From Neolewinella agarilytica (GTDB lineage: Bacteria > Bacteroidota > Bacteroidia > Chitinophagales > Saprospiraceae): a DNA stretch of 64,000 nt. Below the pieces are notes generated by a model, which worked only from the letters and a program-made list of their open reading frames with translations, was not told where the DNA came from and did not search any database. Both the position numbers and the translations under genes were made by a program. The stretch is from contig NZ_FOFB01000001.1 in the NCBI RefSeq assembly GCF_900110645.1, positions 1 to 64,000 of the forward strand, written 5' to 3'. This document shows, one piece after another, positions 63,032 through 64,000 of this stretch. Every line of letters begins with the position of its first letter. Position 1 is the stretch's first letter.

Positions 63032-63146
63032 GCAGGTTGGAGGTTGCAGGTTAGCAGGTTGCAGGTTAGCAGGTTGCAGGTTAGCAGGTTGCAGGTTGCA
63101 GGTTGCAGGTTGCAGGTTGCAGGTTGCAGGTTGCGGGTTGCGGGTT
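63032..63146 (+). repeat. GCAGGTT heptad array, 16 units
   Basis: Starts 1 bp after the adhesin stop. 16 heptads, 13 exact GCAGGTT and variants GGAGGTT and GCGGGTT; three extra A bases in the first half create GCAGGTTAGCAGGTT 15-mers. Ends 3 bp before the terminator. Confidence 0.9.
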
Positions 63147-63149
63147 GGA

Positions 63150-63189
63150 GGCAGCATTCAGGTACGGTCCTGAATGCTGCCTTCTTTTT
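63150..63189 (+). terminator. intrinsic terminator of the adhesin gene
   Basis: GGCAGCATTCAGG (63150-63162), loop TACGGT, CCTGAATGCTGCC (63169-63181), then TTCTTTTT. 13 perfect pairs. Confidence 0.92.
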
Positions 63190-63385
63190 GGGCGCGGGGC
63201 CGCAGGTGCAGGGTTTTGCCGGTCACCACGCGCTCCGCGCGTGCACGGGCTTAGCGCGGTCCCCGCGCTGAGGAGCAATGATTCAGGGGCGCGTACGCGG
63301 AGCGTACTTAGCCCGTTCACGCGCGGGAGCGCGTGGAGACCGGGGCCTTGCTCCTCTACCCCACTCTGCACCTGCGGCTGCGGCT
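63190..63385. repeat. structured repeat element, copy B (196 bp)
   Basis: Arms GGGCGCGGGGCCGCAGGTGC (from 63190) and CTGCACCTGCGGCTGCGGCT (63366-63385). The long stem CCGGTCACCACGCGCTCC (63219-63236) pairs 17 of 18 with GGAGCGCGTGGAGACCGG (63326-63343). Inner stems AGCGCGG-TCC-CCGCGCT and GTACGC-GGA-GCGTAC (63293-63307). Two stems differ from copy A (54419) by paired changes that keep the pairing. Abuts the terminator and precedes the tRNA-Leu promoter. Confidence 0.8.
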
Positions 63386-63417: not shown

Positions 63418-63447
63418 TTGGCAATATCCCACAAAGAATTACCTTTG
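63418..63447 (+). promoter_or_regulatory. promoter of the interrupted tRNA-Leu
   Basis: TTG (63418-63420), 19-bp spacer, TACCTTTG (63440-63447), predicted start within a few bases of the tRNA 5' end at 63458. Identical in form to the tRNA-Leu(CAG) promoter. The only promoter I see for the HNH gene downstream. Confidence 0.75.
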
Positions 63448-63457
63448 CAGCCTACCC

Positions 63458-63496
63458 GCCCGGATGGCGGAACTGGTAGACGCGCTGGACTCAGAT
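63458..63496 (+). tRNA. tRNA-Leu 5' half, interrupted in the anticodon arm
   Basis: GCCCGGA (acceptor 5' strand), TG, GCG-GAACTGGTAGA-CGC (D arm), G, CTGGA (anticodon 5' strand), then CTCAGAT in the loop position, after which the expected TCCAG is replaced by TGCGG and no variable or T arm follows. Either the 5' exon of an intron-containing gene, or a fragment left by an inserted element; the 3' half is not in the window. Anticodon cannot be fixed because the junction may lie anywhere after U33. Confidence 0.75.
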
Positions 63497-63538
63497 TGCG
63501 GCCTTGTTTGCTCATACTTTTTGTTTGTATATTGAAGC

Positions 63539-64000
63539 ATGCGCTACAAATACACAAAACAAGAACTACAAGCCGCTGTTACTGCTTCGTTTAGTATTGC
63601 CCAGGTTTGCAGAATGCTGCAAATTAAAGCTGCCGGAGGAAATTACACTACCCTTAAGCAGAAGTTTAAGGATTGGAACATTGATACTTCCCATTTTCGT
63701 GGTCAAGGATGGAATGTTGGTTTAAAATTTAAGCCGAATCCCAAAAAGCCTTTGTCTGAGATTATGGTGAAGAACTCGAGTTATCAACCTTACAAACTTA
63801 AGCGTAGGTTATTGAAAGAGAAGATAAAGAAACGTGTTTGCGAATCTTGCAAAAACACGAAGTGGTTGAGCGAAGAGATTCCCTTGGAACTTCACCATGT
63901 AAACGGAGATAGACATGACAATAGACTTGTCAATCTGCAATTTCTTTGTCCTAACTGTCATGCCCTCACGGATAACTATCGAGGTAGAAACATTGGGTTG
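63539..64000 (+). CDS. HNH endonuclease, cut by window edge
   Basis: 154 codons from the ATG at 63539 to the last base, still open. An N-terminal helix-turn-helix-like region (YTKQELQAAVTASFSIAQVCRML and a TLKQKFKDWNID helix), a basic middle (KLKRRLLKEKIKKRV), and an HNH domain: zinc CESC and CPNC pairs around LELHHVNGDRHDNRLVNLQFL, with the His-His and Asn of the nuclease site, then CHALTDNYRGRN. This small HNH type is common in homing genes of introns and phages. Visibly more AT-rich than neighbouring genes, suggesting transfer. It begins 42 bases after the broken tRNA-Leu and has no promoter of its own that I can see. Confidence 0.85.
   Translation, partial: MRYKYTKQELQAAVTASFSIAQVCRMLQIKAAGGNYTTLKQKFKDWNIDTSHFRGQGWNVGLKFKPNPKKPLSEIMVKNSSYQPYKLKRRLLKEKIKKRVCESCKNTKWLSEEIPLELHHVNGDRHDNRLVNLQFLCPNCHALTDNYRGRNIGL

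Follow-up and report, generated by a model that had tools for sequence, protein, structure and literature searches.

A mobile group I intron, to which we assign a probability of about 87%, interrupts the sole tRNA-Leu(UAA) gene found in Neolewinella agarilytica, at the right-hand edge of the window (the 64,000-nucleotide stretch analysed here, positions 1–64,000 of the 590,372-base contig G000:C27, whose sequence to the right of the window we also read). All features lie on the forward strand. The 5′ exon, G1 to U33 (63458–63491), is defined by its sequence, by eight copies of the interrupted gene in the genus and by an ARAGORN call on the joined exons, and the 3′ exon, U34 to A73, lies beyond the window at contig positions 64216–64266. 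Between them sits a 724-nt group I intron (63492–64215, of which 63492–64000 fall in the window), identified by a match to the Rfam model RF00028 (63976–64180; 52.5 bits, cut-off 50; E=2.6e-11), by the genus copies and by guide pairing. Its only long open reading frame (ORF) encodes an HNH endonuclease of 161 amino acids plus stop in intron loop L1 (63539–64024; 63539–64000 in the window). The internal guide sequence, GGUU (63996–63999), lies inside this ORF and pairs with exon nucleotides G30-A31-C32-U33, ending in a U33·G wobble. A test for an IStron, made on long ORFs, found no transposase beside the group I core, the HNH being the one long ORF. ARAGORN called no tRNA in the split gene, and called the joined exons tRNA-Leu(taa) with acceptor and anticodon stems paired.

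The promoter-like element, the 5′ half of the tRNA and the HNH reading frame lie at the positions given by the first-pass annotation. The element (63418–63447, forward strand) consists of TTG (63418–63420), a 19-nt spacer and TACCTTTG (63440–63447); we take TTG-N19-TACCTTTG to be the Bacteroidota promoter consensus. In G002 and G018 the gene is again preceded by TACCTTTG, and in G011, G017 and G001 by variants of it; with none seen in G010, the same or a similar element is present in five of six carriers besides our own genome. That annotation had put a break directly after the anticodon loop: the break is real, but its place is inside the loop, after U33 and before the anticodon. It had also given a 42-base gap to the HNH gene, for which we measured 47 nt from the end of the exon to the ATG. 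Its suggestion that a tRNA-Leu anticodon loop holds a group I intron bearing an HNH nuclease gene is borne out by the RF00028 match, both exons and the joined tRNA; the 3′ half that it looked for to the right of the window is there, and the covariance model that it proposed to run across the gap scores above its cut-off. With that 3′ half present and no other UAA tRNA-Leu found, its alternative of a dead fragment (no 3′ half and a full tRNA-Leu set) falls away. Just 5′ of the tRNA region are tandem AGGTTGC-type repeats (63034–63150), and a long GC-rich inverted repeat (63222–63340), with a chance-like Rfam match to MIR918, lies in the interval that separates the tRNA from the preceding gene.

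The 5′ half reads …CTGGACT|CAG and the exons join as CT|TAAAA. The anticodon CAG, suggested by the 5′ half, was rejected because these bases belong to the intron and joining U33 to U34 gives UAA. The anticodon CAA, obtained by shifting both ends by one base, was also rejected, as the last base of the intron would then be other than G and the 5′ exon would lack its terminal U·G pair. Rfam reports 49 tRNAs in the genome, 47 of them covered by the 41 ARAGORN loci; two on contig C60 (72 nt each) fall outside this set. The count of tRNA-Leu genes that had been proposed earlier found CAG, CAA, TAG and GAG intact elsewhere in the genome and UAA solely as the split gene, with no other tRNA-Leu carrying UAA among the 41 loci. 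A pattern search of the genome for an uninterrupted UAA site matched only the CAA gene. Since no other UAA tRNA-Leu was found, the interrupted gene appears to be the sole tRNA-Leu(UAA) found in this genome of 74 contigs.

In all eight genus copies (from seven genomes, G011 having two identical copies), C directly follows U33 and the final G of the intron directly precedes U34. Each copy obeys the group I rule, the 5′ splice-site U pairing with a guide G and the intron ending in G. The guide, located 5′ of P2, is GGUU in all eight, GGCU in 19 of 20 tRNA-fMet introns of the surveyed genomes (own genome included) and GAGU in 10 of 11 tRNA-Leu(UAA) introns of other genera, which are located at U34|A35. 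The difference between GGCU and GGUU matches exon base 31, which is G in fMet and A in Leu. The genus introns failed a test for insertion at U34|A35; they sit at U33|U34, one nucleotide 5′ of the site used by the 11 introns of other genera. We infer that an A-to-G change at guide position 2 would shift the U·G pair from U34 to U33, carrying the splice site along. The core helices P4–P8 (our own labels) covary, with both-sided changes in 14 of 26 pairs across 36 sequences, an alignment that takes in phage and fMet introns. In a core tree of 37 rows, the genus introns group with other Leu introns, away from fMet (96/91); the rows exclude four places with tmRNA-like or unread flanks, four tRNA-Ile introns, the unassigned G034:C29, the motif-less Leu intron G065:C166 and the identical copy G011:C10. 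On the strength of this placement we rejected derivation from an fMet intron, which the shared U33 site and similar 5′ ends had suggested. The HNH ORF overlaps both the guide sequence and P2, and protein and ribozyme should therefore be constrained together.

Matches to RF00028 occur at 48 places in 34 of 198 genomes, our own included: 20 in tRNA-fMet, eight in tRNA-Leu(UAA) of the genus, 11 in other tRNA-Leu(UAA), four in tRNA-Ile(CAU), one unassigned and four others. Three of the last four look like tmRNA by their 3′ flanks (L063, L064, L066), and all four, with tmRNA-like or unread flanks, were dropped from later comparisons. The 11 tRNA-Leu(UAA) introns of other genera have related cores; ten come from the same family and one from another family of the order. 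The second group I intron of our genome (L039:2296–2669) interrupts tRNA-fMet; it too is inserted after U33, and it has no long ORF. An fMet intron of G070 encodes a PD-(D/E)XK protein that matches Pfam PDDEXK_5 and PDB 2ost (E=1.5e-53), the latter presumably I-Ssp6803I, and the Ile(CAU) intron of G081 carries a different HNH-like ORF, below the Pfam cut-off. Loci L071, L079 and L081 comprise fMet introns of relatives with PD-(D/E)XK ORFs (G070 tested, G090 by resemblance) and the Ile(CAU) HNH-like ORF. The nuclease type may differ from one tRNA target to the next.

Comparison with relatives lacking the insert, another check proposed at the outset, revealed an intact, uninterrupted tRNA-Leu(UAA) in 12 of the 21 genus genomes (11 exact, G003 with one mismatch). 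Seven carry the intron, and in G009 (55% complete) and G013 we found neither an empty nor an intron-bearing tRNA-Leu(UAA). The HNH gene is intact in three carriers (G000, G010, G017) and broken or gone in the other four: it is split across two frames in G018, reduced to N-terminal remnants in the introns of G001 and G002, and unrecognisable in the intron of G011. In G011, intron-bearing tRNA-Leu(UAA) copies on two contigs (L103, L104), each beside a carboxylase gene, are identical in the intron and displayed flanks, reflecting either a real duplication or an assembly artefact. One carboxylase gene was found in 19 of the genomes; the tRNA site in the 1.5 kb upstream of it is occupied in five, empty in eight and not found in six. 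On a tree of this carboxylase (19 of 21 genomes; G007 40% filled, G010 on a long branch), occupancy requires six changes, at least four forced by well-supported branches, and the occupancy label does not cluster (500 of 500 shuffles as low). Sister pairs of opposite occupancy are G017/G003, G011/G008 and G001/G006. The three intact HNH genes (154 codons) show pN of 0.17–0.21 and pS of 0.78–0.90; the carboxylase of the same genomes shows 0.12–0.18 and 0.66–0.72. Such low pN against near-saturated pS indicates strong purifying selection on the HNH protein. Its synonymous sites, near saturation and host-gene-like, give no sign of recent transfer. The pattern in the genus agrees with gain through homing, nuclease decay and loss.

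The best family for the HNH protein is PHROG phrog_10822 (E=5.9e-45), which all 44 aligned proteins match. The HNH motif and zinc-ribbon cysteines (C101, C104, H120, C137, C140, H141) are invariant in these 44 sequences. Pfam HNH matches fall below curated cut-offs, and in a test for the I-Ssp6803I type the ORF matched HNH families, not PD-(D/E)XK. Sequence comparison with solved structures gave no confident match. A fold model (mean pLDDT 88.5, pTM 0.57) predicts an N-terminal helical domain (helices 7–16, 20–26 and 33–45), a middle part of lower certainty and an HNH domain at the C terminus. No PDB fold matched this model at E≤0.001; the weak matches were to HNH enzymes such as EcoKMcrA and to short stretches of regulator DNA-binding domains.

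This family is uncommon in bacteria: protein matches occurred in 12 of 198 relatives at E≤0.001 and in 3 of 395 phylum genomes at E≤1e-10, a single scan of genome contigs gave three HNH loci, and plasmids gave no match at E≤1e-8. Six of the 12 relatives match weakly (G047, G048, G068, G123, G149, G180), and the five weak-match loci scanned (L059 left out) have no tRNA-Leu or group I intron adjoining the HNH. Several bacterial loci place the HNH at tRNA-Leu genes. In G049 it lies within a Leu(UAA) intron at U34|A35 (44% identity over 111 residues, 35% across the alignment). In G355 (L109:1474–2033) a free-standing HNH ORF enters tRNA-Leu(UAA) such that its stop is the TAA anticodon, as read by eye, and G081 has an HNH C-terminal fragment just 3′ of an intact tRNA-Leu(UAA) (L056:1480–1723, reverse strand). 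Three further bacterial loci have the HNH directly upstream of tRNA-Leu(UAG) (L038), amid tRNA genes (L037, Nocardioides) and with no tRNA called (L036, a Bacteroidales contig). An HNH tree, built without viral proteins that have inner stops or fewer than 120 amino acids, left the sister of the window protein without resolution.

Viral contigs are a richer source. Two scans yielded 80 and 20 loci, forming 77 clusters at 90% identity (63 and 14); the first had at least 576 relatives on at least 600 stretches, of which the best 80 were kept. The HNH is at tRNA-Leu(UAA) in 61 of the 77 clusters, that is, in 61 of 63 in the closest set and none of 14 in the distant set; because the best 80 of at least 576 relatives were used, 61 of 63 holds for the closest relatives. 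The other 16 clusters lie away from tRNA-Leu(UAA). In the distant set, 12 of 14 have a tRNA within 120 nt, which in five is another tRNA-Leu (UAG or GAG). ARAGORN called tRNAs in 63 of the 77 clusters. In 29 clusters the HNH has an intact tRNA-Leu(UAA) no more than 120 nt away; 29 of the 32 intact tRNA-Leu(UAA) genes in these loci are this close, versus 33 of 207 other tRNAs. Among the 46 loci with at least two tRNAs, tRNA-Leu(UAA) is nearest to the HNH in 20; the expectation from a random choice of a single tRNA in each locus is 7.1, and none of 20,000 random draws was as high as the observed count.

A covariance model detected a group I core in 30 of the remaining 48 viral clusters; the model was built from 36 cores, 15 of them from these clusters, which thus match by construction, leaving 15 independent matches. 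Split tRNA-Leu(UAA) exons accompany the core in all 30, both in 28 and the 3′ exon alone in two. The HNH is in the intron in sense orientation within L1 in ten clusters (L144, L145, L151, L152, L153, L154, L159, L161, L197, L211) and within L6 in two (L150, L212), antisense in the intron in eight (L146, L168, L169, L173, L180, L186, L199, L208), and beside an intron-bearing gene in ten (L147, L156, L165, L166, L189, L190, L193, L196, L216, L217). Placement in L1 or L6 was judged by the position of the HNH relative to exon and core matches; L150 and L168 were read fully, and L208 was placed by spacing. Across 20 viral loci the Rfam group I model matches five and the new covariance model 16. Our exon finder, limited to GACTT and AAAA ends and hence blind to other insertion sites, was positive in 26 of 77 clusters, 25 with a core match and one false (L141, an intact gene); in controls it fired on 4 of 770 Markov sequences and 0 of 30 bacterial tRNA loci. 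Of the five other core-matched clusters, L151, L165 and L180 have both exons by a looser pattern, and L156 and L166 have only the 3′ exon, close to the locus end. For U33-type sites, viral contigs gave only weak, promiscuous matches.

In phage records, the HNH found 123 matches at E≤1e-8, the best at 56% identity. Of 11 such records, picked by hand from named phages, three have the HNH next to tRNA-Leu(UAA) (LR756511, with an intron, LR745208 and Salmonella phage Munch), four have a different tRNA-Leu within 150 nt, two have only non-Leu tRNAs and two have no tRNA within 150 nt. A second core tree joined the genus introns to three phage introns (97/98), but the program warns of meeting long branches and we therefore did not rest a phage origin on it. 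In two further clusters the HNH lies beside a phage tRNA-Leu(UAA) that is interrupted precisely at U34|A35 by a 71-nt insert (L175:1278–1348, L188:1290–1360). Both inserts end in CCA; that of L188 folds into a tRNA-like cloverleaf and that of L175 only partly. They have no group I match and are not called as tRNAs by ARAGORN, which calls the joined outer exons tRNA-Leu(taa). Each may be a tRNA-like element that sits within a tRNA. A search by pattern for a third case gave four matches, L175's own contig and three of another kind. At L150:545–1029, 5′ of the intron-borne HNH, we noted a sub-threshold match to the Rfam GOLLD RNA.

From this anatomy we infer the following cycle. The precursor would be transcribed from the tRNA promoter, and the intron RNA would fold, use a G cofactor and cut after U33, at the U·G pair with the guide; U33 would then be joined to U34 to give a normal tRNA. 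The HNH protein, made from unspliced or excised RNA, would cut intronless tRNA-Leu(UAA) alleles close to the anticodon, and repair off the intron-bearing copy would install the intron together with the HNH gene. As the intron splits the target, the carrier would be immune to its own nuclease. The HNH gene belongs to a family in which the close members are linked to tRNA-Leu(UAA), and was most likely taken up by an intron that already occupied this tRNA gene, a move that would have produced a self-contained mobile intron such as that in the window. Its presence on either side, in either orientation and in different loops of one gene is the trace expected of a nuclease that recognises that gene. 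We give even odds to a broader proposal, in which one HNH branch is dedicated to tRNA-Leu(UAA), nuclease and ribozyme have joined repeatedly (L1 sense, L6 sense, L6 antisense) with intermediates still alive, and phages are the reservoir for the bacterial intron and HNH. Under that proposal, an HNH beside an empty gene, beside an intron-bearing gene and in at least three intron settings would reflect repeated joining. The arrangements look as if a mobile intron were assembled in stages; the trees do not give the order of steps.

We considered three other explanations. The intron may be real but owe its distribution to ancient vertical descent and to precise losses on repeated occasions, with an HNH that has ceased to drive homing in the genus. 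Among the seven carriers, the tree of intron cores is roughly compatible with that of the carboxylase, a host gene, which makes an old presence with many losses possible, and four of these carriers have a broken or missing HNH. We nevertheless think this explanation unlikely, roughly a one-in-four prospect: the three intact genes hold low pN against near-saturated pS, and occupied and empty sites alternate between sisters. It is considerably less probable that the HNH is a splicing helper (maturase) or has another host role rather than acting as a homing enzyme. The overlap of its ORF with the guide and P2, and the joint constraint that this implies, would suit a maturase. In 29 viral clusters, however, genes of the same family stand free, no more than 120 nt from an intact tRNA-Leu(UAA), and in eight they lie antisense in introns; the introns of G001, G002 and G011 persist with the HNH mostly deleted or unrecognisable. 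The first-pass annotation had also raised a DNA cassette that uses the tRNA as target and promoter source and restores a whole tRNA at the distal end. We consider this next to impossible: although the HNH does lie under the tRNA promoter, only the 3′ exon is present at the far end, with no duplicated tRNA segment seen, and a group I core occupies the gap.

A mobile group I intron in tRNA-Leu(UAA) invites comparison with known systems. Cyanobacterial tRNA-Leu(UAA) introns are mostly without ORFs and sit at U34|A35. The portions of the literature available to us place them in the UAA anticodon. The window intron shares with them the gene, the anticodon loop and a small group I core, but it lies after U33, one nucleotide upstream, and bears an HNH gene. 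The Synechocystis tRNA-fMet intron with I-Ssp6803I likewise combines a tRNA anticodon loop and an intron-encoded homing endonuclease (homing would be a prediction here), but its nuclease is PD-(D/E)XK, not HNH, and the window core belongs to the Leu lineage (96/91). SegB of phage T4 belongs to a nuclease family other than HNH. In the excerpts available, SegB is a homing endonuclease of the phage tRNA region, free-standing and not borne on an intron, and is suggested to cleave tRNA-containing DNA (PMC13096335); a nuclease gene in a phage tRNA region is common to both systems. Collaborative homing, as outlined in the accessible parts of two papers, pairs the free-standing F-CphI with the S-PM2 psbA intron (PMC6083498, PMC10448857). 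Ten of our viral clusters similarly have a free-standing nuclease beside an intron-bearing target; in those accounts, however, the targets are protein genes rather than one tRNA gene, and our HNH family also occurs within introns and beside empty targets. The entry for phrog_10822, the same HNH family, describes an HNH endonuclease and names no target. As far as the portions at hand go, tRNAscan-SE 2.0 mentions group I introns in fMet and Ile2 tRNAs, and interrupted tRNA-Leu-TAA genes are described in Thiomargarita and BOGUAY. In the literature searched, which mostly excluded subscription papers, we recognised no description of an HNH-bearing tRNA-Leu(UAA) intron or of group I introns in phage tRNAs.

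Mobile group I introns are already known; what is new, on our reading of the sequences, is one tRNA-Leu(UAA)-linked HNH family in all these states. The gene that it occupies here, the sole one found for its anticodon, is missed by ARAGORN, and the intron adds a one-nucleotide shift of the splice site with a matching change in the guide. How group I introns gain homing nucleases is an open question, addressed here by a single nuclease family, a single target gene and a single intron type, whose arrangements run from separate elements to a fused one. As alleles that are empty, occupied or decayed occur within one bacterial genus, the order of assembly would be testable at the bench.
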